This document shows, one piece after another, positions 1,706-58,300 of a DNA stretch of 64,000 bases. Each line of letters opens with the position of its first letter. The stretch's first letter is position 1. The translations under genes were made by a program, and so were the position numbers. Source of the stretch: Owenia fusiformis. Its lineage: Eukaryota > Annelida > Polychaeta > Sabellida > Oweniidae. The DNA lies in contig CAIIXF020000006.1 in the NCBI GenBank assembly GCA_903813345.2, forward strand, positions 868,001-932,000. The letters run 5' to 3'. The notes below the pieces were generated by a model. It was not told the origin of the DNA and ran no database searches. It saw nothing but the letters and a program-made list of their open reading frames with translations.

Positions 1706-1724
1706 GTATTGTATTGTTTTTTAG

Positions 1725-13148: not shown

Positions 13149-13202
13149 TCATGCAATAGTAACCATCAACATTTTTACTCTCCTCTACAATCGCTCATAA
13201 TG
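13149..13202 (+). other. candidate 5' exon of LRR receptor, copy B (ends in ATG)
   Basis: Same sequence, splice signals and terminal ATG as 1241-1294, and the same reasoning applies. Confidence 0.35.
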
Positions 13203-13632: not shown

Positions 13633-13780
13633 CCTCTTTGGTTCTGTTCTAATGCGAATAAATTGACGACACCCACCACATCTCCTAGTCGTTGTTTAAA
13701 GTTGGTGCCACAAGAACCAGGAAACAAAGCAATTCATTGGTGAAAGAGCAAACATAAAAATGGCATTTGACAAGATAGGG
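13633..13780 (+). other. candidate alternative first coding exon (MAFDKIG), copy B
   Basis: Duplicate of 1725-1872, ending in phase 0 before gtatgt. Confidence 0.3.
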
Positions 13781-31248: not shown

Positions 31249-31300
31249 ATGCCTTGGGGATTCCAAACTTGCGGGCCTAATGAGGCCATGGTGGTGTCAG
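31249..31300 (+). CDS. FLOT1: flotillin exon 1
   Basis: Encodes [18 protein letters not shown], with the last glycine split after its first base (phase 1). [11 protein letters not shown] is the conserved flotillin-1 start. The N-terminus has three residues more than human. The donor is gtaag. The start is the only ATG that gives the family N-terminus. Confidence 0.95.
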
Positions 31301-34300
31301 GTAAGACCTAAGTATATATTTCTAAATTTGAGCTTAAAATCATGTAAATCAAATTTGATTTCCTTATGAATAATGTGCATCAAATTCTGTTCCCCAAAAT
31401 ATATATGAAAAACAAGTTGATTTTTGGGATTTTTCAATATATTCCTCCAAGAGTCGTCTTCTTGATATATTTATACATAATCTATAAGAATTTGATAGTT
31501 TATTAACCAATAATTAGGAAAATATGTTACTTTTGTATATACATACATTGGCATTCAGTTAAACAATATTACGTAACACTTGACTCTTTCTCATGATTCA
31601 CCCTCATTTGCAGGGTGTTGCGAAAGTGATAGCAAGCCACAGCTTATTCCTGGTGGTCGTGTTTTTGTATGGCCATATGTGCAACAGATTCAAAAGTGAG
31701 ACCCCAGTGGGATATTATAGTCGCCCATGTGCATTCTTGATTTGTAGGGTTTTTAAATGTGCTTGGCTATTAGTGGACGATATATGTCACGATATAGGGT
31801 AGAGATTTTTGGGTTTTTATTTTGTGCTACTTTTGGACTTAGAATAAAATTTAAAATGACCAGGCATCAGGGACAGATTCAAAAAAAATTAGAACAGGAC
31901 TCGATCAAAAGAGTTAACGTATAGCATAAAATGTACCCTCTTTCAAAACCAACACAAATGGCGAAAAGTAGCACTTTTCCAGAAAATTAAAAGAGTCCAG
32001 CATACAATAGATTTTCATACCTTTTTTCAAAACCAACACAAATGGCGAAAAGTAGCACTTTCCAGATGCCTTCCAGAAAATAAACAGAGTTTAGTCCAGT
32101 CTATCGATAGATTTTTATACCTTTTATCAAAACTAACACAAATGGCCAAAAGTATCACTTTTCCAGAAAATAAACAGAGTCCAGCATACGATAGATTTTC
32201 AAACCTTTTTTCAAAACCAACACAAATTGCGAAAAGTAACACTTTTCAGAAAATAAACAGAGTCCAGCATACGATAGATTTTCATACCTTTTTTCAAAAC
32301 CAACACAAATGGTGAAAAGTAGCACTTTTTCAGAAAATAAACAGAGTCCAGCATACGATAGATTTTCATACCTTTTTTCAAAACCAACACAAATGGCGAA
32401 AAGTAACACTTTTCAGAAAATAAACAGAGTCCAGCTTAGGATAGATTTTTATACCTTTTTTCAAAACCAACACAAATGGCGAAAAGTAACACTTTTCAGA
32501 AAATAAACAGAGTCCAGCATTCGATAGATTTCCATACCTTTTTTCAAAACCAACACAAATGGCAAAAAGTAGCACTTTCCAGAAAATAAACAAAGTTCAG
32601 CCTATCGATAGATTTTCATCCCTTTTTTCAAAACCAACACAAATTGCGAAAAGTAACACTTTTCAGAAAATAAACAGAGTCCAGCATACGATAGATTTTC
32701 ATACCTTTTTTCAAAACCAACACAAATGGCGAAAAGTAACACTTTTCAGAAAATAAACAGAGTCCAGCATACGATAGATTTTCATACCTTTTTTCAAAAC
32801 CAACACAAATGGTGAAAAGTAGCACTTTTTCAGAAAATAAACAGAGTCCAGCATACGATAGATTTTCATACCTTTTTTCAAAACCAACACAAATGGCGAA
32901 AAGTAACACTTTTCAGAAAATAAACAGAGTCCAGCTTAGGATAGATTTTTATACCTTTTTTCAAAACCAACACAAATGGCGAAAAGTAACACTTTTCAGA
33001 AAATAAACAGAGTCCAGCATTCGATAGATTTCCATACCTTTTTTCAAAACCAACACAAATGGCAAAAAGTAGCACTTTCCAGAAAATAAACAGAGTCCAG
33101 CATACGATAGATTTTCATACCTTTTTTCAAAACCAACACAAATGGCGAAAAGTAACACTTTTCAGAAAATAAACAGAGTCCAGCTTAGGATAGATTTTTA
33201 TACCTTTTTTCAAAACCAACACAAATGGCGAAAAGTAACACTTTTCAGAAAATAAACAGAGTCCAGCATAGGATAGATTTTCATACCTTTTTTCAAAACC
33301 AACACAAATGGCAAAAAGTAACACTTTTCAGAAAATAAACAGAGTTCTGTCTAGCGATAGATTTTCATACCTTTTTCAAAACCAACACAAATGGCCAAAA
33401 GTAACACTTTTCCAGAAAATAAACAGAGTTCAGCCCATCGATAGATTTTCATACCTTTTTTTGAAAACTAACACAAATGGCCAAAAGTATCACTTTTCCA
33501 GAAAATAAACAGAGTCCTGTCTAGCGATAGATTTTCATACCTTTTTCATAACCAACACAAATGGCCAAAAGTAACACTTTTCCAGAAATTAAACAAAGTT
33601 CAGCCTATCGATAGATTTTCATCCCTTTTTTCAAAACCAACACAAATTGCGAAAAGTAACACTTTTCAGAAAATAAACAGAGTCCAGCATACGATAGATT
33701 TTCATACCTTTTTTCAAAACCAACACAAATGGTGAAAAGTAGCACTTTTTCAGAAAATAAACAGAGTCCAGCATACGATAGACTTTCATACCTTTTTTCA
33801 AACGTAAAGGCTAGAGTACCGACAATTGTCGGTACTCTAGACTCTGATGTGGTGGCACGCTAGAGGACCGACAAATAAATTGTCGGTACGGGAGATATGC
33901 TGTGTTTACACGCTAGAGGACCGACAAATATTGATTTTCGAATTTTCTGGCGCATGCGCAATGCGCGGGGGGATATTTCAGATATCATACGGATATTTTG
34001 GGAACAAGTGCAAAACCCGGGGAGGGCATTAGCCCCGGTTACCCGGGGATTACCAAACCCAGGTCAAAAAATGGTAGCCCGGGAACAAGGAATGTTAGTA
34101 AACGTTGAAAGGCCCAATAAAAAACATGAACAAGTAAGACGTTAGAGAGCTATTAATGCAGAGTAAACGGCTATATATATTCTAAACAGATAGGATATTT
34201 CTCCTGAGCCGATCATGCGTAGAAAGGGGCGTTTGCTACCCATTAGATAGAAGAAAATAGCTAGAATGTTTTCTATTTGAAGCTTATGGTATGAGGTTCC

Positions 34301-37300
34301 ATATCCATCCGCCAAAGGGTATATAGTCCATTTAAAAACCTGTGGTATCGTTCTAAATAATTACCCATAGTTGGCTTCTAGGGTACCTAGTATGCCACTA
34401 TTTGGTGTCAAAATAAAGAGGAGTTCAACTTTCATTTTAATTACGAAAATAGCGATGTAGGTCAAAATAGTTCCGAACGTGAGCATGTTTACTACGCGTT
34501 TGCCCGTCATATCAGAATTGAGGAAGTGGTAGCAAACGCGAGTTACAATAAACGGACGCTGATATCTCAAAAAGTAACCTGACTCCCTATAATTTGATGT
34601 AGGTCAATCGAACCCCTATATGGACAGGTGCATTTTGATATATAACACTATGGGGGGTAAGCGTTTCATAGTTGGTCACGAACGCCATATGTGCAAAGTA
34701 TTGTTATGAATTTGGTGTTGGATTACGGTACTCATACCTTATAGCACAATTTTTGATGGAAGTTGCATTTGGCTCCCTTAGTTTATGGCCACGATTCCAT
34801 CTCGCATGAGAGAGCTACCAAACGCAAAGTAAACAGTGATATATTCCAAATGGGATATTTCTCTTGTGCCATGGCGTAGTAAGGGTAGAGAGCGACGGGG
34901 GCGAAAGCATCCCCTCCCCTAACTGTATATATCGACCCATTAGATAGAACAAGAAAAGAGCTTTAAAATGTTTTTTAATTGAAGTTTGTAGGACAATTTT
35001 GATGGAAGTTGAATCAATTTTTGTCGAAATAAATTATGGCTCACTACAAGTTAATGCCTGTACGATTCCATACTGGAAAAGAAGCACTATGTCCCCCTCA
35101 AAAGAAAAAAAGTAGGTCTTGCCGGGATTCGAACTCGGGACCGAATGTGTTCGAGTCGTGCTCGCTAACCACTAGACTACCAGTGATGTGGTTATTTCTA
35201 AAAGTAAAAGTAGTGGATTTATTTATGAAATTGTCGGCTCTCTAGCAAAAACACGTAGCAGCCACTTGCGTACCGACAATTGTCGGTTCTCTATCTGGCA
35301 CTACTAGTTGACGATAGAGTGCCGACGATTGTCGGTACCCCAGCAAATACCCCCGGACAGTCTCCAGTACCGACAATTGTCGGTCCTGGAGCCACTCCGT
35401 TTTTCAAAACCAACACAAATGGCCAAAAGTAACACTTTTTCCAGAAAATAAATAGAGTCCAGCCTATTGATAGATTTTCATACCCCTTTTTCAAAACCAA
35501 CACAAATGGCCAAAAGTAACACTTTTCCAGAAAATAAACAGAGACCAACCTATCGATAGATTTTTATACCTTTTTTCAAAAGGCCGTGGCTGGAGAGCCT
35601 TAAATATTACGGAGTGGCTCCAGGACCGACAATTGTCGGTACTGGAGACTGTCCAGGGGTATTTGCTGGGGTACCGACAATTGTCAGCACTCTATCGTCA
35701 CCTAATAGTGCCAGATAGAGAACAGACAATTGTCGGTACGCAAGTGGCTGCTACGTGTTTTTGCTAGAGAGCCGACAATTTCATAAATAAATCCACTACT
35801 TTTACCTATAGAAATAACTCTAGCCTTTACGTAAATATTAAGGCTCTTTAGCATTTTGGTAACCAATTTGGCTAGAGAGCCTTAAATTTTAAGGTTCTTT
35901 AGCATTTTGGCTGAAAGAGCCTTAAATTTTAAGGCTCTTTAGCATTTTGATAGCCAATTTCGCTAGAGAGCCTTAAAGGAATTCTAGGCGACAGAAATGA
36001 CAAAATATTGTTTCTGGGACAAGATCAAACGACTTTGACTATATTCTATACCCAACCTATTTTGTAATTTAACAATCAGCACAAATATACATACCATATT
36101 AGCAGATATCGGACAAATTCATAAAAAAATATTTTTTGATCGATAAAATCGCTGATTATTAAACCGGAAGTGTCTTCTCTGAGGTCCGCGAAGAAGATGA
36201 AGAAAACATATAAAGATTTCAGTCATTTCAAATTTGCCGTCGATTTGGTTTTAAATGGTTCTAAATTATCTTTGAATGCTTACTATGACTTCTATAAGTA
36301 CTGTTTTGACTTCCCCACTTCATAAAAAGAAGATTATCACCTTTTACTCGACTCATAAATTTACTTCCGGTCTACCGAGAAAAATAATAGTTTGAACCTT
36401 TTCAATCCTCAGTCAAGATTTGAAAAAAAACTTTTTGTTTATTTTCTGGAAAAGTGCTACTTTTTGCCATTTATGTTGGTTTTTAAAAAAGGAAAGAAAA
36501 TCGATATATACTGAAGGCTGGATAGTTTGAACCTTTTCAATCCTCAGTCAAGATTTGAAAAAAAACTTTTTGTTTATTTTCTGGAAAAGTGTTACTTTTC
36601 GCCATTTGTGTTGGTCTTGAAAAGGTATGAAAATCTATCGATAGGCTGAACTCTGTTAAGTGTTACTTTTGGCCATTTGTGTTGTTTTTGAAAAAAGGTA
36701 TGAAAATCTATCGTATGTTGGACTCTGTTTATTTTCTGGAAATGTGCTACTTTTGGCCATTTGTGTTGGTTTTGAAAAAAGGTATAAAAATCTATCGTAT
36801 GCTGGACTCTGTTTATTTTCTGAAAAGTGTTACTTTTCGCCATTTGTGTTGGTTTTGAAAAAAGGTATGAAAATCTGTTGTATGCTGGACTCTGTTTATT
36901 TTCTGAAAAGTGTTACTTTTCGCCATTTGTGTTGGTTTTGAAAAAAGGTATGAAAATCTATTGTATGCTGGACTCTGTTTATTTTCTGAAAAGTGTTACT
37001 TTTTGCCATTTGTGTTGGTTTTGAAAAAAGGTATGGAAATCTATCGAATGCTGGACTCTGTTTATTTTCTGAAAAGTGTTACTTTTCGCCATTTGTGTTG
37101 GTTTTGAAAAAAGGTATAAAAATCTATCCTAAGCTGGACTCTGTTTAATTTTCTGAAAAGTGTTACTTTTCGCCATTTGTGTTGGTTTTGAAAAAAGGTA
37201 TGAAAATCTATCGTATGCTGGACTCTGTTTATTTTCTGAAAAGTGTTACTTTTTGCCATTTGTGTTAGTTTTGAAAAAAGGTATGAAAATCTATCGTATG

Positions 37301-40300
37301 TTGGACTCTGTTTATTTTCTGGAAAAGTGATACTTTTGGCCATTTCTGTTGGTTTTGAAAAAAGGTATAAAAATCTATCGATAGGCTGAACTCTGTTTAT
37401 TTCCTGGAAAAGTGTTACTTTTCGCCATATGTGTTGGTTTTGAAAAAAGGTATGAAAATCTATCGTATTCTGGACTCTGTTTATTTTCTGAAAAGTGTTA
37501 CTTTTCGCCATTTGTGTTGGTTTTGAAAAAAGGTATGAAAATCTATTGTATGCTGGACTCTGTTTATTTTCTGAAAAGTGTTACTTTTCGCCATTTGTGT
37601 TGGTTTTGAAAAAGTTATGAAAATCTATCGAATGCTGGACTCTGTTTATTTTCTGAAAAAGTGCTACTTTTCGCCATTTGTGTTGGTTTTGAAAAAAGGT
37701 ATGAAAATCTATCGTATGCTGGACTCTGTTTATTTTCTGAAAAGTGTTACTTTTCGCCATTTGTGTTGGTTTTGAAAAAAGGTATGAAAATCTATCGTAT
37801 GCTGGACTCTGTTTATTTTCTGAAAAGTGTTACTTTTTGCCATTTGTGTTGGTTTTGAAAAAAGGTATGAAAATCTATCATATGCTGGACTCTGTTTATT
37901 TTCTGGAAAAGTGATACTTTTTGCCATTTGTGTTGGTTTTGAAAAAAGGTATGAAAATCTATCGATAGGCTGGACTGAACTGTATGTTTTTTAAATGCCT
38001 GGTCATTTTAAATTTTATTCTAAGTCCAAAAGTAGCACAAAATAAAAACCCAATAATCGCTACCCTATATTGTGACACTGATGTAGTGGACAGGTCAAAT
38101 ATGTTCAAGTTGAAAGTGAAAAGTGATTTTGTTAGGGTTGGGTAAAAAATTTTCAAAATGCTGAAGATAATCAAGTGTTTCCTTTTACTGTCATATCATG
38201 TTTTTAAGTTTTATATAGTTATTATAAAGGGTCTAATTCTTCCCGAGATTTTAATGTACTTCCCCCCGAAAACTGAGTGAAATTTGACCTGGCCTTCTAT
38301 TAGAAATGCATGATTCTCAGTTGTTTTTAGGTGGTTAAAGGTCTCGTCTCCCCGCTGGATTTTGTTTTGACCATCATCTTATTTATTGTATTGCTAGGTT
38401 CACTTTGTGAAAGTCTGGTACCAAGAGGTTTATTTTCCTTAACATTTACTAAACATTTGCAGAATAAGTTCTTTATTTTGTTGGGTTAAATTGTAAATGC
38501 ATTTCAACTTTAAATTCCTTTCATTTGCTATTATACATGTTAGAATATGCTCAAATTTAACTTCTCCAGGCCGACTTTTACAGATTGAAATGTATGTTGT
38601 AACATTATTTTGTTTATAATATATATTTTATCATTCATTTCAGTGTCAGCATTTTGGCTGAATGTAAACTGTCTTATATCTGGTGTAGGCTTTTTCTATT
38701 GTAGCATGGAATACAGATACGTTCATCTTTATCAATCATTTATTATTTTGGGTGAAAAAAGTGAAAAAAGTTTATCATATATTTTCTTAAATGTCTATAA
38801 GCAATAGGTATGGTAACAGTTATATACATAAGACACATTAAACAACAAGCATTATATTTATCAAATTTATATAATTATCCTGGATTGAGGTATTTAGGAA
38901 ACGTTTAATTAACTTGACAGGATGTTGCTATTCAAGTCCTCTAATGATACCTGGTGGGAGGGTGTGGGTATGGCCAGGTGTGCAACAGGTCCAGAAGTGA
39001 GTTAGCGAAAAAGCATGAATAATGACCAACTTGAATATGTTTTGTTCATTTTGTTAAGCATCGCTTCAGCATTATTGAATTGGTCTGGATGCTAGAAATA
39101 GAACATGTTTGATATACAGTACTGTTTTGTCCAGTTGATAGAAAAGTTCTGCAGCGCACTACTAATTAGGATTTGGTATTCACCAAATGGAGGGTTATGC
39201 ACTGTTTCACTTTTTACACTGGATGAAGTATGTTTGACACCTCGTTCCATAGATTCTAGGTTGCTTCTCCCTCAAAATCCTCCCTAGAAAAGAAGAATTA
39301 CAGAGATATTTATTTCAGTTGAATGCTATATGTCTAGGATAACTTATATTTCTCAAGTCCATAACGGTATTAATTTTTTTGTTATTGGTTAAGCTAGCTG
39401 GCCTGTTGGATATTGCATTTTTGTACTATGGAGTCAGTCTGCATTACATGTTTTACATTGTTATTACCATTCTGTCTATTCTGAAATCCAATATATCAGG
39501 GCAGATGACCTATTATAGATCCTGTTATATATTAGTCGTTATAATCAGTTTGTGCATTAGACAGTCTCTCTTCATATCAAAGTTTGTTTTAACTGGATCC
39601 ATTTTTTCATTTCTGTATTCCTGATTGATGTTCCTTTTATTATTTGCTAAATGTGCCTATGTTAAAACTTATTTCAAATCAAAGATGGTCGACCAACTTG
39701 TCAAGGAAAGTCTTAGAAATCTCTTAATATCTTTCACCTTTCACACATAATTGCAAATGCATACAAACAGGCACCAGCTACCAGGTCCCTTGGTTGGTAA
39801 TGTTTTATTAATTATTGTTCTACCAATGGCAGATTTCCATACACTCTTTGTGGTAAACAAAATTGGTATTCTCTTCATGAAATGAATTATGTTTTACTGA
39901 TGAACGCTATAAACTATTTACAGGTATACCGTAACTATTATTACTTAGATTAAGCATGTATGCTGTAGACTATTACCCAAGTTAATCCATTCTCTTTATG
40001 ATTATCTGAATTATTTGTTTAGCCTAATGTATTGCTTTTTTAGGTTCCTGATATTTACTTTTTGTTGTCTTTTAAATGTTTTTTTTCAGTTATTATGTTA
40101 AAAGTTAAAGAATAAGAGGAGGGACATTTTGTGTTGATTTATAGCTAGCTTGTTTTTTATTATTTTAAATGAGTTGTCTTCTTTTCAGAGATTTGGTGTT
40201 AGTATACAGTTGTACTTTTGTATAAAATGTCCCTATCTTTTCTTAAATTACGTGCGTCATTATTAAGTATCCATGTGCACTGCTACCCACCTAATTACAC

Positions 40301-43300
40301 AGACGTATCGTCGGTGTATCATGGTGGAACTTCCTCCGGGACTAGGTTTCGGTACGATTTTTTTATTTCCCGATTTACACCTACTTATAAGTCACGTTGT
40401 GGATAATAATTTGGCTCGAAGTTAAGGAAGATAGTCTAGTTTGAGAATGTGTCGATGGTTTTAGGCTTTATATGTTAACAAAGACACAATTCACGTATTT
40501 AGTCCCTCGCTTTTCTTACACTGACGAACGACCAATATCAGTGTAATATTGGCAATATTAATGCCGATCGTCAGTATAAGAAAAGCGAGGGACTAAATAC
40601 GTGAATTGTGTCTTTGTTAACATATAAAATCTAAAACCATCGACACATTCTCAAACTAGACTATCTTCCTTAACTTCGAGCCAAATTATTATCTACAACG
40701 TGACTTATACAGGGTGATCAATAAATAAGGTAAAAGTATCTGGCATTTCTTCAAATTTTACCCAATCCTTATGAAATTTGCACAGAATAATGTTCAAACA
40801 TTATTGAATTGATATATTAACTTACAGATCAAAGTGATGTGATTGGTTGAAGTTATAGTTACCATAGCAACAGAAAGCATGCAGACCCGGGGCAACTATC
40901 AAAAAACTAAATTTTCAGTCAAAACACTTTTGATAATATATTTCAAATCACAATTAAAATGGCATATCATATTATTTTTTCATACTTCATAACTGCTACT
41001 TAATGTCCTTTGTTTTTAACATATAGTTCATGTCTTCTACTCCAGTCTTTGAACACCTTTTAAACCCATTTTCCCATAGCGTGCAAATTTTCAAGACAGC
41101 TGGCTTCAAGTCATCCCATGAGAAACTCTCTCAACTCCCTCTTCAGCTTACCATGACGGTAAAATCATATGGGGACAAGTCAGGAGAGTATAGTACATGA
41201 CCTAACAGTGGGAAACCAAGTGCTTCAATGGTTTGTACCGTGAGAATAGCATTGTGAGACGGAGCATTATCCCATGTTATGTGAAACGTTTTGCAGGCCT
41301 CTTAGTCTTAGCTTCTTTCTCTTTTCTCTCATCAAATCTCTTCTGTGGGTATTGCTTTTCATCATTGACCTGTCTCATAGACTTTCTATGATCACATCAG
41401 TTTTCATTATATATTAATCTTTCCCGTGACATCAAGCATCGAATTTGCAAGACAATATGTAACATGTAAACAAAGTATTAAAGCAATTAATGCTGGCACC
41501 CACATTTATTTCTTTTCTGTTTGAAAAAGATGTGCATTTTATCATTTTTTGTTCAAATTGGACGCAATGAAATTGCCCCGGGTACCCCCGACTCCAGTTG
41601 CCATAGTAACTATAATATTAACCAATCAGATGGCAGAAGTTATATATTTATGTTTTAATTTAGAAATGTACAAGGTATATTCTGACCAAATTTCAGGATG
41701 TTTGGACCAATATTTACAAAATGCCAGATACTTTTACCTTATTTATTGATCACCCTGTAAGTAGGTGTAAATCGGGAAATAAAAAAATCTTACCGAAACC
41801 TAGTCCCGGAGGAAGTTCCGCCATGATACACCGACGATACGTCTGTGTAATTAGGTGGGTAGCAGTGATGTGCGTTAATATTATTTATTTATTCAAATGA
41901 TAAAACCAGGAAGTAAATATATGAGGTATTTTTATACACGGTAAACATCTATGAAAGAGCACTCTTAGCACTCAAGCAAAATGTTTTTATGTACAGGGTG
42001 GGCCAAAAAAAAGTTCACCCTTTTTCATTTTAATCTAATTTTCTTATTTTTGATGCAATGCCTCTAAAAATTTATATGTATATAGCTCAGACATTTCTAT
42101 ACATGTTGTTAGGATTTGAGTGAAATTTATGCAACAGTGTTGTCATGACACCTAAAATATATTTATGGTGTGTCATGAAAAAAAACCAGAAATTCAAAGA
42201 GGAGGGAAAGCCCCAGAGTTTCAAGATGACAGACATAATTACCTCTCTTGCTTACCACCTTCGTTCGTTCGAATTTTCATCGGCTAGTTATCAAATACTA
42301 CACTTCGATGGGATGTTATAATTGATATAGGCATATTCCGTATACCTTTCTTTATCTTGATGTGAAATGAGAAGCTATGATATTGGTTAACACGCCAGAA
42401 ATGAACATAATATTATTCGAAGCGTATTTCGAAAATTTTGAAACCGCCATTGATGACGTCATTTGTTTGTCGACTTTTGACCAATCAGCGACCGTGTCAT
42501 CTCAATACAGATTTACATTATAAGCATATGTCATCTTTGAACCCTGGTGTTTCTCCCCCTCTGAGAAATTCACTTCATTTACAAAATGGCGGATTTCAAA
42601 AAAAGGAGGGAAATTTGAAAAGAAGTTATCATGGTAAATATAATTTTTATGTCAGTTAATGCAAAATATTACAAAGTAGAGTGTTAATTAATAGTCAGAG
42701 TTGATGATAAACACCTCTTTAAACAATTAAGTACTTTTATAAACACCCGATACTACCATAGATGAGTTGGTCAACAAGTTACTGAAAATCCATGGTATTA
42801 TCCAATTTTCCTCATGGTATCTGCCGGCGTATCTAAATTGGGAAAAACTAGAGTAACATTTGTTCAACCTGGAGCCAAAATGAATTCTACATACTATATA
42901 GACAGAGTGCTAAAAAAGTCTTTATTAAAGGATATGAATCGCATCAATCCAAACTACATATTCCAACAAGATGGGGCTCCCTCGCACACATCTAAAGCGA
43001 CAATGGAGTTCTTGCATGCCAATGCACCTGATTTTATCCCCCCTGACTTATGGCCCCCAAATAGCCCTAATCTCAATGTTATGGATTATTTTGTGTGGGG
43101 TGAACTAGAAAAACATGTTCATAGTGTTCCCATCCATTCAGTTCAAGAACTCCAACAAAGAATAACTTTATGTTGGGAACAATTATCACAACAATCAATT
43201 AACACGGCAATAAATAAATGGCGTCATAGACTAAAACTGGTTGTGCAGGAACAAGGAGGACATATTGAACATTTACTTTAAAAACAAAACAGCCAAAGAC

Positions 43301-46300
43301 ACACCTAATGTTATATATCGACCTTGTTTAGAAATGTCTCAGTTATCTACATATCAATTTTTTAAGGGATTGCATCAAAAATAAAAAAAATGAGATTAAA
43401 ATGAAAAAGGGTGAACTTTTTTTTGGCCCACCCTGTATATATGTACTTTAAATTGTTCAATGCATATTACATACCTGTATATATTTTTCCTGGTGTTATT
43501 TTTGTTTAATTATTATCAGTAGTGAAGCATGATTCTAGTTTGCCTACACATAAAACATTTTATAGGTTGTTGTCATGGAAAACCAGAATTAGTAGCTGGT
43601 GGCAGAACTTTTGTTTGGCCTTGTATCCAACGTGTCCAAAAGTAAGAGCACACAATTGTGCTACACAGTGTGCTGAATGAAAGCAAAGTGTGCTACATAA
43701 TCCTTGTTCTAATATTTTAGTGTGACATCATAATAGTCTTGGTGCTACATTTATGTGTTACATATATTTAGTTTATTGAGAGTAGCATGCCTTATAATTT
43801 TCCAGGCTGTTGTCATTCTAAACCTGAAATGATTGCTGGGGGTAGAATTTTTGTATGGCCAGCTATACAACGTGTCCAAAAGTAAGAACACTGCACATTA
43901 TACTAGAATATGTGCTTGTTAACAATCGCCTGATATGAGAGTACACAGAAGCTTGTACTAACTTGGAGTCATGCAGCCCAGATGATGCATGTTGCTAGGG
44001 TACATGGGCATGGGGCTGGGATATGTAGGCCAAGGTTTTTCCATTCTTTATGCTCTGTCAGGAGTAATGTGCTGTTTTTTGGTGGTGTATGAACTGTATA
44101 TATCTTTTCATTATTATATCATCAAGATGTGCCATGTAAGTTAGGTGAAATTATGAATTACAGGATGTTGCTATTCAAAACCTGAGCTTGTTGCTGGTGG
44201 TAGGATTTTTGTTTGGCCTTGTATACAACAGCTTGATAAGTAAGTCCTGCACATTGTGCCATTCTAGGTGAACATTGTGCTACACAGGATGCTCAGTATG
44301 TTATACAGGGTGCTGAGTTATAGTTTTAGGTGTTGTGCTATATTTTAATCTTCACACACATAGTTCTCAGTTTTTGTTATCTCTGCTGTTGTATTTGAGA
44401 TTTTCTGTAGAAAACAGAACTCTTCAGTAATTAGGATCCTTGTTTTAGAGACCACGTGGTCCTTCTACTGATGGTCATTCTGGTGTGTTTCATCATTCCT
44501 TCACATCTTGTGTTGTAGAATCACATTTTTTGTATTTGTCTATTAAGTCACAAAGCATGGACTTTCTCTGTCTCTAGTCCATTCTCAAAAGATTGTTAGA
44601 ATTGTTTTATTTTTTTATTTTATAGTCTATTGTTAGACTTATGATTGATAAGATATATATATATATAAGATATAAGTTTGGATCATGTTTAATCATTATC
44701 GGAACAAAGAGGGTTTCTGATTTCTCTGGTTGTTGATTTGTGTTTATAAAGCTGTGTTTAATTCTTTCTTCTTTTCTTTCAGTTCTTGTATACTGCCTTT
44801 GGTACCTTTTCGTGTACTTCATTTGGTACCTTTTCGTGTACTTCCTTTGGTACCTTCTCGTGTACTTCCTTTTGTACTTTGAGTTGCATTTGGTTCCTCA
44901 AATCAAATAATGTGTTCTACCAAGAATTATCACTTATAAGTTTAACTGATGTACTTAACTTTTTCTCAACTACTCCTGTTTATGTGCCTTGTATAATCTA
45001 AATTGTCATTAATTCTTATAACTTATTGATTTAACTTCTTACTTTACTTGCAACAATTCATTCTTTATCCTGAATCTTGCTTGAATAATATGCTAGAATT
45101 GATGGATACTAACATGTAATATTTTAATGAGAAATTAATTATTCCCATTAAACCCCTCCTCCTAAACAGATGTCCAGAATCCGTACCTCTTTCTTCCCCC
45201 CCTTTTAATAATCAATTTGGAAGCACCCGATTAAACTGAATCATGTGATCTTATTATGCGCAATGACTCGCAGTGTTGCGACAGCCAATCAGATTGCGAG
45301 TTCTTAATCGGGGAAATTCTAACTGCTTATTGCAGGGGGTAAAAAGAAAGAATATATTCTGGATTTTGAAGCCCTGTGATCGAAGGTTGCATTAACCCAG
45401 TTCATATTATTAAATTAACATGTCTTATTTTCTTTACTAGAAGTATTTTTACATGTCATATATGCGGTTGTTGGTGACCAGCTACATAATATTGTCTTTA
45501 AATATAGTAACTCTCATTACCAGATGTATTGTAAGGATTTTCTTCCCTAAAATTAAATATATGACTACCTTATACTTTATTATACTTAATGTATAATGTT
45601 CTAACCTGTACTTTTACCAGAGAATCTTCTTAGATATCTTGACTTACTTGAGTAACATTATATGTAGTATTGCACCAGTTTCTATGGTCCTCCACTCGTT
45701 ATCTTGTTCAAGAAATATTATTTGGTATTAGAGGGTAGGTTGTGACCAGAGACTTGTTGCAATACTATTGTAGAGGGGACTATGGACTAACATAGCTTAA
45801 GCTTTTTGTTCTGCCCTATACAGTGAAACATGTATATAAACATCTCTTTAAGTCAGACATCGTGAATTGAAACATTTTGGTGTTTAGTTAATCTAAATTG
45901 AACATATGGACTGATTATCTCAGTTTCATTTTCTCAAAAATCTAACAACAAGAAGCTAACAACATTTAAGTCATTAAGTTATCTGTAAAATAGAAACAAA
46001 AATATCAGAATATCACACATTTCAAGGTGAGAGGTGTTTTCATACATTTATTTCACTGAACTTATACTTATATATTCATTATGTTGCATCTAGCCACTAA
46101 CCATCATACATAGTTTTCACTGGACATATTCCTTGTATTCATTCTGTTGCATCTAGCATGTTTCTCTTATACATTGTACCTGGCAGGAGTTTGTTATTCC
46201 AAGCCCAGTATTATCTATGGGGGTGGCAGCGTATGGCCTCTCCCATGTGGCATGCAGAGGGTAGATAGGTGAGGTCCCCAATATGAGAACCCCTACCCTT

Positions 46301-49300
46301 TCTTATCTAGAGACAGAATCCCCTCCAGTAAATTATATATGAGCCATTTTTGCTGACCTCAAAACATTTTACAACATTGGTCGACTCATATGAAGCATGT
46401 GACCAATTTTTGTTTTGCTTTTGACTTAAATATTTTATCAAATGTCATAGGACATTATATTATAGTAAGATGGCTTATACGTATTTACATGTTATAACAG
46501 TCCCCTCAGTATATACTTTAAATATATTTAGTTTTTCTACTTGCTTCAGCTTTTGTTTAGGCTTTGGCTCTACTTTGATTTGTTTTATCTTGCATGGCTG
46601 TCAGCTTTGCTATGCTTTTTGTCAACTTTTCTGTGCTTTTTTGTTAGCTTTGCTGTGCTTTTGTCGGATTTACTAATGCTCTTTTATACTTTGTCAGTTT
46701 TACTAAATGCGTTTTCAGTTTTGCTATGCTCTTTTGTCAGCTTAATTTTGCTCTTTTGTAAGCTCTGCTCTGCTTTTTATTATCAGTCTTGCTTTGCTCT
46801 TTTGTCAGATTTGCTGAGCCTTTTCAGATCTGCCGTGCTCTTTTGTAAGTTTTGCTTTCCTCTTTTATTAGCTTAGCTGTACTCTTTTGCCATCTTTGCT
46901 GTGCCTTCATCTGTTCATCTGTGATTCTTATATCGGGAAAAGAGGAGATAAAGATACACATCGATGATCTAGTTCCATTGATTTTGTCACATTTTTTCTG
47001 ATATTCCGACTGTGGAGGGATTGGTCATTGTATCACATCTTGGGTCGATCACTCCATTTGTTTGTTTACCTGTCTCTAATTCTTTACAGTTTGTTCATGT
47101 ATATTCATAACTGTGGTCTAGTCTTCATTGTAAGGACAACATAAATTAGTGAACATGTATTCTGAGGAACAACATGTATATTTGCATAGTTTTCAGGCTT
47201 AAAACACATAATGTTAGAATCCAGGAAATAAATACAGATTATTAGGGTATATTGTCTAGGCCCGACTTTGGAGGGATTGGTCATTGTAAAAGATCTTAAA
47301 TAAGTTACGTAGGACAGACTGGATTAGGACAAAAAACTGAGATAGGAGTCACTCGAATATAACATTAATCATATTGGCGAAGATAATGCTATTAACAGTT
47401 TTAAAGCTTCTATAGAAGCTAAGCACTTAACTTATCAGTGTTCTCCCCCAAAAAAATTTTCAACTGGGTGCAAGATTTCAAGTCTGAAAAAATCAGCACT
47501 CGCTACGCTCACAATATCTCAGTGTAGGTGCTTCACTCATTTTTCAAATCAGAAGTTGAAGTGCAGATTCCAACTGGGTGCCAACTGGGGGGCCTTTGGT
47601 TTCAAGTAGGGGGTGCCCCCGGTAAAAGTGACATGGGGAGATCACTGCTTATTCATTTAAAATTGCATGTGGAAAAATTAACACTGAGCATTCATTTTGA
47701 CTAAATTTAAAAAAATGTTATGTTTTTATTTACCATATAGTCATGAGTTTTGACATGGTTTTAAATTATTATTACTTTTTACCAATGAGCCTTTACTGTT
47801 ATATATCAGGCCTTAATTTTGTTACCTGATAATTTGTGAAACTCACTTCGAAAATGCAAGTGTAGTCAGGATTCCAAGTGATATTTCAAAATGGATGCTC
47901 TCCATTGCTCAGTAATCTGTGTTCTCACATTTGACTGCTTTCAAAATGCTTTAAAACACAAATACAGATTTTCATTTTTAGTTCATCCCACATCATTTTT
48001 TGGAGAGATTGTCACACTTCATAAACTATGCTTTAGCATGTCAATTCATATGTACAACATTATGAGTTGTACTTTGTGGTTATATATGTTGTCTATTGCT
48101 GCATGCATATATTGCCTTGTTATATTATATGTTGCATTGGTGCATACGTTGTCTTCTATATGTTGCCTGTTGCTATGGTTGTCGTAATTGTTTGCCTATA
48201 GGAATGTGTCATGGTAAACCCACCACAGTAATAGCTGGGAGAGCTTTTGTTTTCCCTTGTTGCCAGCAAGTTAATAGGTGAGATGTGTATCCATGGTTAT
48301 GGTCAGGATTTATAAACAGCAAAATGGTGTATTTGGTGTTTCTGTACATACATATATGAACAATGCAAATGTCATCATTGTAGTCCATTCTCACAATCTG
48401 AAAACCTGATAGAAATTTTTATATAATATTATAATATTGGGGCAGTAGAAAATAGGGTGTCAACCTAAAGGTCTAATACGCACCCTGTCATCATTTTCAT
48501 CGATCTTAACAGGGTTCTCTTCCTTGCCATTATGAGTTGGACTACCATCAGAGGGGGAGAAACCCCAGGGTTCAAAGATGACATACGCTTATAATGTAAA
48601 TCTGTATTGAGATGACATCGTCGCTGATTGGTTTAGCGAGGCGATCGTTGATTGGTTTAAAACCAGGTCAATTTGAAAACTTTGAAAACCAAGATGGAGG
48701 GTAAGTACTTCCGGGAAAGGAGGTGCGCGAAGGAGGAAATCGTACATCATCAATTGAATCATGGGGTTTTCCCTCTTACTACCATGGTGCTCATATGATT
48801 GTTTTGTTTTATGTACACAAACACCATCTTCTGAAAAAATACTTCAACTAAAAAATGAGTGGTGTGTACACTACATTTAGAATCAGTACTTAAACCCATA
48901 ACATAGAGAAATGTTGTGGATTTACTAACACATTCACTTCTAGATTTTCATTTCTTCCAGCTTAATATATAGATCTGCATGAATTGAGTGGTCTTGCGTT
49001 AATATTCTTTCGTAGATGTATAGATATGTTGTATATACTGTAGTTATTACTATTGTGAATATATTTGTACGTAGGAATGTGCCATTCAACTCCGACAACA
49101 ATTATTGCGGGCAGGGCTTTTATCTGGGGTTGTTGTCAACGGGTAGATAGGTGAGGTACCAACACAAGAATAAAACTCAACACCCTTCTCTCTCTCATCT
49201 TCTTGAGTCAATTTTTATAAACATCGTAAAATTCTTGATTCATTTGTCTTATTTGTCTAGTACTATTTATCATCAATTGGAAGAACAGTTGTAAAACATG

Positions 49301-52300
49301 TATCAATAACTTTATGATGTTTCTGACATTGATCCTTGATATTCATGTAAAATAGCACGTGGGAATCAAACATTTAAGCTATCCTCCCTTTCACATCCTA
49401 TAGCTGTAAAGTATCAGAAACCACCCCTTTCCCCTACACGTAACAAATCCATCAGATAGCTGAGCTGGACATCAGCTTTAATCCAGCACCTTTTTCTACA
49501 TAGAGGGAACGTAGAGTTCGCATAATCATTCATACTTTCTACTGTTTCATCTTTATGGGATCTAATTGCATTTCACACAGTTAAAATAAATATTTCTGAC
49601 TAAAAGATTCACTGATTGCATTCTTATACTCCTGACATCGCCTTTATCTCACAAATGACATTCTCTGAAAAAATTGCCATTTTATATCATGGTGAGATTA
49701 TTGCTCCAATTTATGGCATTTTGAACTGTGCAGTTGGCATATTTTATATCTTTGGCTTCATCTTAGGTTGTGGGAATGCTAAACCCAACTTGGTTCATGG
49801 AGGGACAACTTTTGTTTGGCCTTTTTGTCAACAAATTGATCGGTAATTCTTGAATATGTTCAGTTTTATTAGTATAATCCAATCAGTTGAATTGTTTATT
49901 ATGCAGTTTTTTATGTTAAGAATTGTAGAACAGTTAATATCTGTTCAATTGTTAAATTTTTAATTTGAAGGTAACTCAAGAAAGATAACAATTAGTTTTG
50001 TTTGAAAAAGTTCACTTTTATAAGACTTTAAACTTGAAATACATGCAAAGAATTCATTGTGTTTTTAGCAAAAGGGCAATTTTTTGCCATCTGATCTGTC
50101 AAATGTTGAGTCATATCTCAGTCATAATACAGAATTCATCAAATCTATTGATAGTTTGCAGCATTGCAGTTAGCGTTATAATTATCCAGACCTTTACATA
50201 CAACTCTTGGATCTGGATCAATAATAGAGCTATCTGCCACTAAAATTAACCTAACATTATAACATTATTGGGGTTCTGCTTAAGATGGATGTTGTTGATT
50301 AAATACAAGTATTCCATTTGTAGTAAGGCATAGGTTCAGAGGAAATATCAGGGTTTTCAATATGTCAGATTCTCCCATCTGTTTTCATCCATGTTAATCT
50401 TTATATGCATTATAATAACATTTCTCTGCATGCATAATTGCCTTATATTACAGTACTAGTCTACCTATTAATATAACATGCATACTTTTCTGCATATATT
50501 CCTGAGGATATCCTCACGTTTAATATAATCCCTGCTACTTTCCTTTTCTATTGGTGTTCTTTGCGTCTTTTAGTAAGTTCAAGCAAACCTTTTCTCCCCT
50601 TTTAATTAAAGTACATTTTATATTAATAATTAAGGTAAAAAGTATAGCTTGAAGATTCATGTATATGTACTGTGAAACATTTGAAATCAAGCAGTATAAG
50701 GTTTGTGCATAGATTTACTTACGTTTGGTTCTAATCTAAATTGTATTTATGGTAACCTACCCAAATAATTAGGTAAGTTGTGAAAATTGGTTTGTTTCAG
50801 AATTAATTTTTGGTATTCATAGAATTTTATCAAAATAATTTTTATTGGAAAGTAAAATGATTGCTTAAGGTTTATTTTAATAAAACTATTTGTCTTGTAA
50901 TTTTCAATAGATTGCCTAATCTGTTTTATATGTTGTTTTTATATTTACATATGTAATTTGAAATTATTTTATATTGAAATCATTTTATATGCTTTTGTGA
51001 AAATAATATAATTTTCTTAATTAAATCTATTGTATACCAAAGTTAACCCAAAGTTAACCATATATAATATCCTATTTGTAAGATAATTGGAATAAAAAGA
51101 ATAAATATCACTAAATGTATACAGTTTTTAAGACATAACAGCACATACTATACAAAATATATGATCAGCATTCCATTTCATATTGTGGTTGTATTTTTAA
51201 GGATCTCGCTGAACACAATGACATTGACCATTGAGAGCCCCCAGGTCTACACACAGATGGGTGTGGCTATTTCTGTCACAGGTATTGCACAGGTAAGTTA
51301 TTGTTGTGCATTCTGTAACCTGTATGTATTCCCCCATTGGGGGGGGGGTGTGCTCTAGGGTCTCAATGAAGGCCTTCATCACTATGAATTAGTTGAACAT
51401 AACTTGACCAAGAGATGAAGTCTTGTTTTTGCTGATAAAATATAACAATGGTGGAATTTATGTGGGTTCCTCAGAGTTAATGTTGATATCAATAGATGGG
51501 ACTGAAGTCGCATACTTTCTGAACTTTTTTTGATAAGAGTGAAAAAAAGCTGTTACTTTACTTCCAAAACAATGACAATATTTAATAATATTTGATAATA
51601 TTTTTAAAAAAGTCTTACCATTTATTTGCTGTATTGTAGCATAATACACATAGTTTTTTTTTATTTAGGTATATTTATTCAACATACACTGTGTTCTCCC
51701 TGACTGAAAAATGCGTGGCGCTCGCGCCACGCACATTGTGGCTGCGCCACGCTGATTTATTGCGCGCCACACATTTATTAACAGCGCCACGCATTAGACT
51801 TTGACAGAAAAATTTCCCAAAGTGAAAATAGAAATTGAAAAAAATCAAAGTTTTAATCACATCAAAATCTCAGCCCGTTTTGCTTGAAAACGATACAAAA
51901 TGCTCTATGTAGATAAAGAAATGTCTGTACTTACCTTTCTTGCACTAAAGAATCTTCAATTTACCTTCTATTTTGATAAAAAACAGTTTGATTTGCACAG
52001 AAATGAAACATGTTTTTTCTCAAAGGACTTACAGCCTCCGATTTTGAAGAGTACACTGAACGAAAATGAACATGTGTGCACATTTTCCCGGGAATTTCGG
52101 ACACAATAATTATAGTTGAATTATATTGAAGAAATATGTGGCCACATACTGAAAATTATTTTGTATATTGAACTTTATATTACAGGGTGGGCCAAAAAAA
52201 TTTGCAACCTTTTTAGAAGGCAAAAAAAGTATTATAACATTATGGTATTGACATGAAATTTTTTTTACAGAAACTTAAGGATAGGCATATTTTACCATTT

Positions 52301-55300
52301 AAATACTTAAGCTAATACTGACATCAAATTTTTTTGTCAGATGTTTGAATATTAATGGTAAATTGTTCATTTGTCCGAGATTTACCATTTTCCGAGAAAA
52401 TCGGACTTTCTATGATTTTATGTGATCAACAATAACACATTCATTATGTTTACTAAATCTGCTACAATCTTTGATAACTGTTTAACAAATGTCTAGTACA
52501 GGTTTATATCAGGATCTAGTCACTATGGTAATATTGTTACACTGTATTAATTTTTTATTAAACAAATGTTCTATGCATCCGCCTTTCACCTTAACAATCA
52601 CACGGAGACGAGAACTGAACTGGTCAATGGCGAGATCCAGCAGTTCTTGTGGTAGTCGTCTCCACTTATCCTGCAGAACTTCTTATAGTTGATCAATAAT
52701 TTGTGGGGTATAACCATTAACTACAATACATTGCTCCAGGTGCCCCCATGTGTGATAGTCCCAGGGGTTGGTATCTGGTGTATTGGGTGGCCATTCGACT
52801 CAGGATTAATCTTCTTCTAAAGGGACATCTTTCAAGAATGGGGGCTCTTTCAGCCCCAAGTGATTACATATTCCAGCAGGATAGCGCTCCTGACCATAGG
52901 CCAAAAGTCACTATGGAATATCTGGAGCAAAATACCCCTTGATTCATTAGTCCTGATGAATAGCCGCCTAATACACCATTTAACAAAGATTGCAGCAGAT
53001 TTAGTGAACATAACAAATGTTCTATCGATGATCACATAAAATGATAGAAAATCACATTTTCTAGGAAAATCGGTAAATCTCTGACACATGAACAATTTAC
53101 CATTAATATTCAAACATCTGACAAAAAAATTTGATGTCAGTATTAGCTTAAGTATTTAAATGGTAAAATATGCCTATCCTTAAGTTTCTGTAAAAAAAAT
53201 TTCATGTCAATACCATAATGTTATAATACTTTTTTTGCCTTCTAAAAAGGTTGCAAAATTTTTTGGCCCACCCTGTATATTATGGAAATAAATATTAAAT
53301 TGAACATTGAATTAAAACAAACCTCTGAGCATTTATATTGCAACATGGCCTATTGTCATTAAAGTAGATGATTATACAGTGCTAAATTTCATTTGTTTTG
53401 ATGTTATGTAATTACATAACATAAAAGCAAATGTTTAGCATATTTATAACAATGGCCTTCAGGACTGTCAATAGATGGCGAAAAATTCAGTAGGTTTAAT
53501 AGCATACTTTAACATGTAAAAAATGTTCCAAAAATCTCCCAAGATAAATTTTATTGGAAATATCCGAAACTTCTAATTTTGAATCTTAAAACATGTTTGT
53601 AAATAATGATGAAGGAAAATATGATATTTATTTGATATATGTAGAGAATTTGAAGTTTCAAAACAGCAATATTTACACATAAACAAATGGGCCAGTTGTG
53701 GAGAACAACCTAGTAGTTAAGTGCCATCTATACGAGTCCTGGCTCCCATTGGCTGTTGATGCAAATGATTGTGATTAAGTAACGCCGCAAAGCGGCGCCG
53801 ATTTTTTTTAAGCACGTTTTTGTAAACTTATCACCACCCTAATAATTTTGCCGCCACCCATCAATTTTTATTCAAACTTTTTCACCACTCACTTTTGAAA
53901 AATTAGGGAGAACACTGATACACATGCATGATTCTGTTAATTTTAGGTGAAAGTTCAAGGTCAGAACAAAGAAATGTTGGAACATGCATGTCAGCAGTTC
54001 TTGGGCAAATCCGAGCAGGAGATTCGTAAAATTGCCCATGAGACACTTGAGGGACACCAGCGTGCAATCATGGGAAACATGACTGTTGAGGTTGGTATCT
54101 TTTGCTAACTTTTGGCTTCTATGGTTAGCCGATAAAATAGTTTGCCTATCCATCCTTTTATTCCTGAGCTCTTCAAGATGAATACTTTCTCATAAAAAAC
54201 ACTTTATACTCAATGTTGAGACTTCAATCATTGAAAGTTAGTTCCAATGTGAAATTTTCTGTTTTATCTAAAGTTTAAGATTAGTTTTTCACAGTTGACT
54301 TTGTTCTCATTTGTTGTACATTTTCTTTTGTGCGGTGTCATTGTTAAAGCATGTTGGAAATCAGTAATGCATTTGATTGCAAATGTTCAATTTTCATAAA
54401 AGCAAACAATTCTTCTCAAATGATGATATATTTTTTAGGAAATTTACAAAGACCGTAAGAAGTTCTCCAAGGCTGTGTTTGAAGTTGCATCATCAGATCT
54501 GATTAACATGGGAATCAGCGTGGTGAGCTACACCATCAAGGACATCAGAGATGAAGAGGGCTACCTGAAGGCTTTGGGTATGGGAAGAACTGCCCAGGTG
54601 AAGCGAGATGCCAGGATTGGTGAGGCTGAGGCTAGACGAGATGCTGGTATTAAGGTAAAGATGTCTTGAGTGGTTTAGAAAATAGTAATAGACAGTAATA
54701 CTTGTCATTTCACTATACAAGCCAGAAAAATCGTAAGGGTTTTGTCAAGCTTGTAACAGAAATGCCTAATAAATAACCTCAAAGCTGAGTCTTTTTCCTA
54801 TTTGTATGCAGCCCTGTATTTTTACTATTTGCACTTCATTTTGGGCAAGTGTGCTTATATGCTCCCCTGGCCTTTGTAGGTTTGTATTTCATGCTGATCT
54901 TAAGATTTAAGTATCTACACAGCATGATATATTATCGATATATTTGAAAATTAAACTTTCTAAAATCAGATCATTCAAGATCAAATTGTTAAGTCTTAAT
55001 TCCATCCTCTAGGAAGCTATTGCTGAGGAACAGCGTATGGCAGCCAGGTATGCTAATGATATTGACATTGCCAAGGCCCAGAGGGACTTTGAGCTGAAGA
55101 AGGCCCATTATGACATGGAGGTGCAAACTAAAAAGGCAGAGTCGGACCTGGCTTATTCTCTGCAGGTAATGAAGAAATTAGATTTTCTTGGTATTGTATG
55201 TACATAAAGGTTACTCATTAGGTGAAATTGTATATGGGTTTCATTATGAAGGACATGATATCTGACTGAGAAAAGCTCATATCATCCGAAAGGGTAAAAC

Positions 55301-58300
55301 TCATTCATAGTTATAAAAAAAATGTATCCCTTGGTATCAAAATATTAGGTTTATGTGAAAAAGTAAGAATTGTGTTTGACAAGGATATTAAATGGAATTA
55401 TCAATTTTGAATTAATGTCAGGGGTAAATGAGGGAGTAATTCATGATTTGATTTAATGTGTACATAAGCATTATTTCAACCAACTACATCTGAATATTTT
55501 AGGCAGCTAAAACGAAACAGAAGATTAAGGAGGAACACATGCAAATCAAGGTTATTGAGAGGTCGCAGCAAATTCAGGTTCAGGAACAAGAAATCGTAAG
55601 ACGTGAGAGAGAATTGAATGCCCAGGTGAAGAAACCTGCTGAAGCTGAGAAATACAAACTTGAGAAACTTGCAGAGGCAAACAGGTAATTTAGTTTGGAA
55701 ATTGTGCCCCCCCCCCTTGTGGTCCTTCAGCGTGTATAAATATACTTGTATAAAGAAATTGCTTTCATTGAGGTGATTATATTAAACAACATGATGGGAT
55801 CATTGTTATTACCGGCCATATTCGCCGTAAAAAGCGCCCAGGGCGCTTTTGAAATTGAAATTCCCATTGTAACCCATTACAAAGGGCGCCCATATATGAG
55901 AGAAGTCAAAAATCCCCGGGAATTTCATGTATGGGAATTTTTCTTGCCAAAAATGCCTTATTTGCAACGAAAGTGACAGCATACTTTTACAATAATGATA
56001 TGTATCGTCATTGGAGAGAGTACAGTGAAGAGCGCTTAAATAAAGCAAGAATCTAATGTTTATTGACAGTGATTGAAGAACTCCCCAGCAGAGCCCCTCG
56101 AGGTGAAGGAATTGTTTTCCACAATTATTTTCAATATTTCCGTTATAGACTGTTAGATATCGATCTTAAGTTATACCTCATTTTTTTGATTTGATGACAG
56201 ATCATCATTTTTCATGTAAAAGTCATGTAAAAGTCGAGAAATCAAGAAAGTTCACCTTGACAATCGCTAGTTAGTAAAATGTCCAAACAAAACTCTGAAA
56301 CGTGATCTTTTCCTTCATTCATTATGGACTATTTTGAGATAATATTAGCTAAGTATGATGTGGTAGGCACCCACGATAGATATTTATCGGGAGGATGCAT
56401 CGAATTACAAAATATGTCATGTTTTCTGCATTTTAGTGTAAGCACTCTATTATCGCCCACTATATTTCTTTGGAAATTTGATTTTTTCTGATACATTTGT
56501 TAATACTTGGTCATTCCTCGATATTTCTTGATCTCTGTGAAGCAGGGTGGGCGCTTATTAGGGGTGGGCCCTTATTACGGCAATTACGGTACTTAGTCTA
56601 GTGATCTCAATCCATGGTGCTTTTAAGATTTCAGTTCTGTTTATATAACGGAGCAAAATATTGCATCAGATTATACTACCTTTGCAGCGGCTCTATGCTC
56701 TTAATATTTCTAACCAGTACATCAGGAAGAAAGTGGGAGTAGAAGAGTGGTTGAGAGTGAGGGGGGCTTGGGGTGGAACAGGGATAAGGGTGGAACAGGG
56801 AAAATGGTGAATAAAAGTGATGGGGGCAGAGAGAATTGCTGCAAAATATCACAATGTTTCTAGATTCTCTGAAAATATTTTGTTTTTATTATGTATATTT
56901 TGAGATGGATCTTGCCATGGCGTGAGAAATCATTCTATATATATATATCAATTTTACATTACATGAGCTATATATGAGTTATATGAGCCACTCTATAACA
57001 TTAGCTATATGTTACAGAAATAAGGTTATATATGAAGCAGAAGCTGAAGCACAAGCTATGCAAGTAAGCCAAGCTGATCACCTAGGAAACATTGCTGCCT
57101 TATTGCATGATTTCATACCTCCATCAAACATTCATTCATGTTACAAGCAAATGGTCTTCAAAAATCAGATTTTCCTTTAGGATTTATTGGTACAACTTGT
57201 GGATTTTTGCAATCAAAATATGGTCCATTTGAAACTGTCATTCAATTGACAAGGACAATTTTTTTTAAACAATTCTGAAATGTTGATTCTACTTTTAACC
57301 TTATATAAGGGAAAATTTGTGAACTTTTGTTTTATTTTATGCAACTGTTATTAAACAGTTCCACTTGTTCTGCTTTTTCATTTAAAAGTTATACAGTCAT
57401 TACATAACATATCATGAAAATATGCATGTTACTGACACAGGTTTTAACAAGCTAATGGAATGAGCTAGCATAAGAAGAACCCAGCAGATAAAGTGGAGTC
57501 AAAAATTCTAGGAGATTTTGATCTGATTGACGTGTCAATGCTCATTAAGGACAAAGTGTGACTTCAGAGCAATCGGTCAATTCTTGAATTAATGGAGTGC
57601 ATTTACGAGAAGCTTTGTATTCTTGTAATTATGCTGACTGTGAACTCCCTTAGTATGTTATAGCCCATCGCACTTTATCCCCCTCCTTGTGTTGGCTTTA
57701 GGCACCATTCGAAGCTAGTTTTATAGTTTGCCATATTTGGTTGTGTTTGTAGAAACCGCATTGTGTTAGAAGCCCAGGCCACTGCTGAATCCACTCAAGT
57801 AAGTACACTTCAAAAAAATATTCAACTTGTACTTACTTCAAGTCAAAAATGTTGATGTTGGTGCCTCATTATAACACTTAACGAGGCGTATAGCCTTTTT
57901 ATTTTTTCGTGAAGCCACTCAGTAAAATTACAATTTCTCTGCAACCTGATGTCCAATCAAGATCATTCAAGTATCTATGTGTTCCTGACACGTTTGGGCA
58001 TCGGAATCGGGAAGACATCATGGTGCAGAGAAATCGTAATTTTACTGAGTGGCTTCACGAAAAAATAAGCAGCACTTTAGGCCACCTTAAGGTGGGACAG
58101 CTATTTTTGTTTTGATTGATCTACCATGTGCTACCTTAATTGGAGAATCTAGAATTTGCACTGAGATGAAATAATTTTTATTTCTTAGATCTAAGAGATA
58201 GGCACCATGGCTATATAGATGTTAGCTACATGTAAATGCTTATTTGAAGCCTCCATTTCAAATGTCTTCCCATTCAATGGCCTTGTGTATAATATTTTGT

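Follow-up and report, generated by a model that had tools for sequence, protein, structure and literature searches.

Why does one flotillin gene carry nine versions of its second exon in a row between exon 1 and exon 3? We asked this of a 64,000-nt window of the Owenia fusiformis genome (bases 868001-932000 of the 40.8-Mb contig C6; 34% guanine plus cytosine by base counts), in which a flotillin-1 gene runs on the + strand from 31249 to about 60.8 kb. Judged by its sequence, the array very probably supplies flotillin-1 with nine mutually exclusive forms of exon 2, one for each productive mRNA, which would swap the membrane anchor of the protein. One cassette would be spliced between exon 1 and exon 3, giving nine isoforms that differ solely at SPFH1 residues 16-40. 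Several or all of the cassettes would be used in RNA, and the choice among them may be regulated by cell type or stage.

An original prediction, made from the letters of the sequence alone, had placed nine interchangeable copies of exon 2 in this gene, and all nine are where it put them. Each has AG before it and GT after it, as had been claimed, is open in its frame, and runs from phase 1 to phase 2; all fit exon 1 and exon 3. Seven of them measure 76 nt and the other two 82 nt (24-26 codons), and by eye their splice sites look like those of the constitutive exons. We computed the products of no cassette, one cassette and any two cassettes. Any single cassette gives an open flotillin of 430-432 residues, so on sequence the nine are indeed interchangeable. 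Skipping them all leads to a stop after 20 codons, and joining two leads to a stop after 47-80 codons in 36 of 36 pairs. Since a full protein comes from one cassette alone, mRNA decay would be expected to clear the products with none or two; frameshift and decay would do this whatever picks the cassette.

The cassettes are also clearly related to one another. A nine-row profile, run with the HMMER filters off against all six frames of the window, recovered every cassette at 35.9-57.9 bits; a second, partial report of the ninth cassette aside, no other stretch of the window exceeded 1.6 bits. When each cassette was left out in turn, it was still recovered by the other eight, in eight of nine cases at E 5e-9 or better; the weakest match was cassette 46187 (E 0.0034), and cassette 31614 scored 39.0 bits. 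The best non-cassette match in the window in these runs reached at most 1.9 bits, and no broken or decayed cassette was detected there. Chance similarity among the cassettes is rejected by these profile and leave-one-out matches. In the whole assembly (498 Mb, 525 contigs), a 25-residue query found eight places, all within the array; because it missed 46187, very divergent copies could still lie elsewhere. The common plan drawn for the cassettes in the original prediction turned out to be loose: the nine are related, but the invariant residues number just three (a Pro, a Gly and a Gln), and the F-V-W-P core is nearly invariant. The Arg of GGR is absent from 46187 and 49767, and 49767 also has no second Cys.

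The identity of the gene was examined in two ways. The 430-residue product with cassette 44164, the isoform of the nine that was scanned against Pfam, matched Band_7 (E 2e-23) and Flot (E 2e-7), both past the cut-off. Its N-terminal 60 residues scored 77 bits against FLOT1 (PDB 9bq2, 9l3g) and 37 bits against FLOT2. By sequence, the gene is nearer flotillin-1 than flotillin-2, and its assignment to flotillin-1 and to the N-terminal SPFH segment agrees with what had been proposed. We found no other flotillin-1 locus in the 498-Mb genome, whether with exon 1 by DNA or with exons 4-10 (exon 8 being unmatched). Duplication of the whole gene or of its other exons is rejected, with exon 1 at one place and exons 4-10 at one flotillin-1 locus. 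A search of the genome for the Flot family gave no match despite the presence of the gene; that search is blind to a split domain. Exon borders were taken from matching frames and AG/GT sites in genomic DNA (Table 1).

Table 1. Exons of flotillin-1 in the window, including the nine cassettes of exon 2 (window positions)
Feature	Position	Strand	Remarks
Exon 1, coding part	31249..31300	+	phase 1 end; single DNA match in genome
Cassette 1	31614..31695	+	82 nt; Tyr at Cys34 position
Cassette 2	38921..38996	+	76 nt; Gly at Cys34 position
Cassette 3	43566..43641	+	76 nt; Cys34 kept
Cassette 4	43806..43881	+	76 nt; Ala at Cys34 position
Cassette 5	44164..44239	+	76 nt; Cys34 kept; nearest known FLOT1, 15/25
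Cassette 6	46187..46268	+	82 nt; most divergent; second Cys on Cys34 or two places past, by alignment
Cassette 7	48202..48277	+	76 nt; Cys34 kept, adjoining second Cys
Cassette 8	49075..49150	+	76 nt; Cys34 kept, adjoining second Cys
Cassette 9	49767..49842	+	76 nt; Phe at Cys34 position, Cys adjoining
Exon 3	51202..51292	+	phase 2 start
Exon 4	53947..54090	+	genome match
Exon 5	54439..54654	+	genome match
Exon 6	55013..55165	+	genome match
Exon 7	55503..55684	+	genome match
Exon 8	57018..57063	+	borders by eye; 46 nt, without own match in genome search
Exon 9	58547..58684	+	genome match
Exon 10	60448..60612	+	genome match
Coding end in probable last exon (SMKMAQRRV, stop)	60794..60823	+	borders by eye

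The segment that the cassettes encode corresponds to FLOT1 residues 16-40 of 9bq2 and 9l3g (E 2e-21 for the 60-residue query), which we take to be human flotillin-1. Seven of the nine align to it without gaps, and between 9 and 15 of its 25 residues are identical across the set. In excerpts of a flotillin review, SPFH1 is given as residues 1-43, and the palmitoylated sites are listed as Cys34 of flotillin-1 and Cys4, Cys19 and Cys20 of flotillin-2 (PMC11775717). Excerpts of a second paper describe a cage of 22 pairs of flotillin-1 and flotillin-2, in which SPFH1 penetrates one leaflet and its surface carries hydrophobic residues, Trp and cysteines that could be lipidated (PMC11260169). The membrane-inserting SPFH1 region is called poorly resolved in the excerpts of both (PMC11260169, PMC11775717). 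In our array few positions vary as much as that of Cys34, which reads Tyr, Gly, Cys, Ala, Cys, Leu, Cys, Cys, Phe from first to last cassette. This cysteine is kept in four of nine by the cassette alignment and in five of nine by pairwise alignment to FLOT1, where the second Cys of 46187 falls on it. Every cassette has two or three cysteines, in varying places.

The most direct prediction is that the isoforms would differ in acylation and membrane preference. Palmitoylation would vary with the cassette, four or five of the nine offering a Cys at the Cys34 position and the others different Cys patterns, and this in turn may target the flotillin-1/flotillin-2 cage to different membranes or microdomains. 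Acylation that is lower or altered is predicted for 31614, 38921, 43806 and 49767, which lack Cys34. A bolder idea, which we hold tentatively and with some doubt, is that the lipid anchor of the cage is under the control of a nine-way splice switch, with cells choosing or mixing the nine segments. These would be spread over the 22 flotillin-1 positions of each ring, with flotillin-2 as the constant partner, and one scaffold would thereby be routed to different membrane domains or lipid compositions.

The history of the cassettes bears on whether they are used. Mean pairwise identity is 0.61 inside the seven 76-nt exons and 0.24-0.34 in flanks more than 10 nt away, where the background is 0.28. 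For five pairs of neighbouring or similar cassettes we aligned 200 nt of upstream and 160 nt of downstream flank, and nine of the ten comparisons fell inside the range of 100 shuffles; the exception was the downstream flanks of 43566 and 44164 (score 30, shuffle maximum 28). That similarity stops at the splice sites suggests that the copies are old and that the exons alone were kept. Similarity rises somewhat with proximity in the array (Mantel r 0.37, P 0.03), which is the pattern that tandem exon duplication predicts. Nonsynonymous divergence (dN) was below synonymous divergence (dS) in all 26 pairs with computable dS by the NG86 method. A codon model of all cassettes gave an omega (dN/dS) of 0.15 (2dlnL, twice the log-likelihood difference, 60.9; P 6e-15). 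With two classes of branches, omega was 0.12 at the tips and 0.47 on inner branches, and fixing the tips at 1 was rejected (P 9e-13). Sequence evidence for joint purifying selection on the cassettes is strong; the upkeep of every single cassette by selection is not proved. The original prediction held that nine open copies with intact splice sites are hard to explain without selection and named dN/dS among the cassettes as a check. The check went its way and the argument holds for the cassettes together, but taken one at a time only three of nine reject neutrality.

Several points weigh against the reading of nine mutually exclusive exons. Our evidence base is the genomic sequence of one genome. 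Divergence is near or past saturation, and dS was not computable in 10 of the 36 pairs. All codon tests used one neighbour-joining tree, and each cassette offers a mere 24-26 codons; some branch lengths are large, and the fitted length for 46187 stopped at its upper limit, which makes the numbers from the codon model rough. Selection is weak when cassettes are tested singly on their own branches. Neutrality was rejected at P < 0.01 for 31614 (omega 0.06, P 0.008), 46187 (omega 0.15, P 0.0009) and 49075 (omega 0.06, P 0.005), while the other six missed 0.05. Two of these came near the threshold (43566, P 0.08; 44164, P 0.07), and neutrality was not rejected for 38921 (P 0.4), 43806 (P 0.21), 48202 (P 0.32) and 49767 (P 0.97). 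The last of these has an own-branch omega of 1.1, and its donor, TCG/gtaatt, is without G at +5. Finally, a search of 300-nt flanks found no docking site that pairs with at least eight of the nine better than shuffled sequences do.

If one cassette is spliced at a time, something must choose it. The shortest intron between cassettes is 164 nt, whereas steric block calls for less than 50 nt from donor to branch point, and the cassette donors look U2 type by eye, with no mixture of U2 and U12 intron classes. From these two observations, steric block and U2/U12 incompatibility are both unlikely. A specific version of the mutually exclusive reading would have competing RNA base pairs direct the choice, as they do for Dscam of insects and for 14-3-3 zeta, and the layout of the array matches the arrays of those genes. 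We nevertheless regard it as unlikely. The docking search (ungapped helices, masked tandem repeats, 12 shuffles each, one genome) gave best eight-of-nine scores of -12.76 upstream, against shuffle minima of -12.38 to -13.82, and -12.98 downstream, against -12.47 to -14.03. The best mean pairing scores, -19.45 and -24.45, did beat the shuffles (lowest -17.0 and -16.1), but by blastn each of the two sites has its inverted copy next to a single cassette, so that either maximum traces to one flank. The two maxima reflect strong pairing of single flanks with distant intron sites: the downstream flank of 31614 with about 38.0 kb (inverted copy 83 nt, 96%) and the upstream flank of 43566 with about 42.0 kb (inverted copy 117 nt, 90%). 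Long inverted repeats between cassettes 1 and 2 also speak for this version. Support for the Dscam-like character proposed for the array covers layout (tandem homologues of the same phase and similar length, of which one fits) but not mechanism, since no docking pairing common to eight of nine flanks outscored the shuffles. For nine mutually exclusive exons, what is left is putative trans-acting regulation with frameshift and decay as a backstop. Among seven splicing-factor motifs tried, TTCTCT (which we take to be PTB-like) occurs 14 times in the array introns (31301-51201) against 5.4 expected (standard deviation 2.1); it lies within 200 nt of only three cassettes, so we place no weight on the excess.

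The introns of the array contain repeats and a mobile element. Between cassettes 1 and 2, an 83-bp minisatellite forms two oppositely oriented arrays (31934-33802 and 36658-37976), whose inverted arms reach 587 nt at 94% complementarity and could give the pre-mRNA a very long double-stranded stretch. The next intron, before cassette 3, has a transposase fragment at 42766-43281 (DDE_3, E 8e-7); the site at about 42.0 kb and its inverted copy upstream of cassette 3 are perhaps the ends of this element. Mobile elements have entered the array, and the exons stayed intact.

It could be argued that one or a few cassettes are used, say 43566, 43806 and 44164, and that the rest are old duplicates that persist by chance or in a non-coding role. 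The three central cassettes do score highest when aligned to known FLOT1, and the six own-branch tests in which neutrality is not rejected at P 0.05, together with the omega near 1 of 49767, are what this explanation would lead one to expect. If the copies were young, with 0.1 neutral changes per site each, the chance survival of eight intact copies in a simple simulation would have a probability of 0.002, which is small but not negligible. The cassettes do not look young: any two differ at between 16 and 39 of the 69 bases compared, and decayed copies were not seen in the window. At 0.25 and 0.5 neutral changes per site per copy, the chance that eight copies stay open with intact splice dinucleotides drops to about 8e-7 and 2e-11. 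Moreover, the tip branches together reject neutrality, and the single rejections come from the divergent cassettes 31614, 46187 and 49075, not from the central three. We consider this explanation improbable.

Some cassettes could instead have their own promoters and serve as alternative first coding exons. In 48202 and 49075 the first full codon is an in-frame ATG, and an 18-kb array has room for internal promoters. However, the acceptor is at the same place in all nine, those two included, and a start inside a cassette would lose the conserved GPNEA segment of exon 1. A second GPNEA-type segment was found neither on the + strand of the window, with a loose motif, nor in the genome, by DNA. 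The idea has very little in its favour. An array that was duplicated recently, or produced by faulty assembly, has a negligible claim and we regard either as ruled out: the upstream tandem duplication of about 12 kb (99.8% over 8.3 kb) could be an unmerged haplotype, but the cassettes have diverged at 16 to 39 of 69 bases and sit among dissimilar introns in one 40.8-Mb contig.

Flotillin-2 provides an internal control. Its gene is separate, on contig 12, and its exons 1-3 have the same phases (1, 2; by eye) and protein borders as those of flotillin-1. We found no second exon 2 in the 9.6-kb stretch searched, where the best window off the known exon scored 26 against 159 for that exon. With the same borders and a single exon 2 in flotillin-2, the expansion appears particular to flotillin-1 in this genome. 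Excerpts of a study of four insects assign the first 16 residues of flotillin-2 to an exon of their own (PMC1891103). The exon 2 unit is probably older than the flotillin-1 expansion.

The array resembles known mutually exclusive clusters in several ways. Similar length, homology, splice sites and frame, the four preconditions for such exons in the excerpted Kassiopeia criteria (PMC3923563), are all found here. As in other clusters, cassette length is not divisible by three and joint inclusion shifts the frame, a property put at 60% of human clusters in excerpts of PMC5740500. According to the same excerpts, Dscam clusters reach 53 members, and every bilaterian is considered capable of having complex clusters (PMC5740500). 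What sets the present array apart is that its nine members lie in a gene where we met no published cluster and are known from genome sequence. Like insect Dscam, it is a large tandem array of interchangeable exons. Dscam has several clusters, which vary extracellular recognition domains; here there is one cluster, a membrane-anchor segment is varied, and no docking or selector signal was found.

SNAP25 exons 5a and 5b appear to be the nearest functional parallel known to us. These tandem-duplicated alternative exons alter the setting of palmitoylated cysteines, which are needed for membrane targeting, in the excerpts of PMC2581893. Our array has nine exons against two, and SNAP25 is an unrelated protein. 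To our knowledge, it forms no flotillin-type cage. KRAS 4A/4B splicing also swaps a membrane anchor, as proposed here for flotillin-1, but through two alternative C-terminal exons and not an array of copies of one segment. In the solved flotillin-1 structures (9bq2, 9l3g) we met one N-terminal sequence per protein, against nine encoded here.

The original prediction knew of no such array in flotillin, and nothing we saw contradicts it: among the matches listed in the open-access literature, none describes a flotillin exon array (subscription papers and supplementary tables were outside this scope). Among the matches listed for tandem exon duplication, none named flotillin. Ordinary alternative splicing of human and cattle flotillins does appear in print: excerpts mention skipped exons in cattle FLOT1 (PMC10940349), the presence of FLOT1 in a set of mis-spliced human genes (PMC7790816) and isoform switching of FLOT2 in sepsis (PMC9205547). 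Others describe a large insect Flo-2 intron that harbours a gene cluster (PMC1891103), and no exon array occurs in the excerpted text of any of the four.

Should the cassettes be expressed, the nine would form one large cluster of mutually exclusive exons, and the variation would fall on the face with which a widespread membrane scaffold grips the membrane and not on a recognition surface. The type of exon cluster is known, but both the gene and the target, the membrane anchor of a scaffold, are unexpected. The cassettes provide nine natural versions of a 25-residue anchor under joint selection, which may offer a handle on flotillin targeting and on the roles of its cysteines. The same genome would pair a variable flotillin-1 with an apparently invariant flotillin-2.

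Elsewhere in the window, upstream of the gene, positions 1-11680 and about 11908-23690 form the tandem duplication of about 12 kb, with 99.8% identity along one piece of 8.3 kb and 97.3% along one of 6.9 kb; it is either very recent or an unmerged haplotype. Each copy contains a 625-codon open frame with leucine-rich repeats (by Pfam, in the first copy) and, by eye, a membrane span. Just before these frames, at about 3500-6870 and 15400-18870, 33-codon repeats form long open frames (GVLLHGIILILSECVIEDSCD...), which are probably a minisatellite open by chance.

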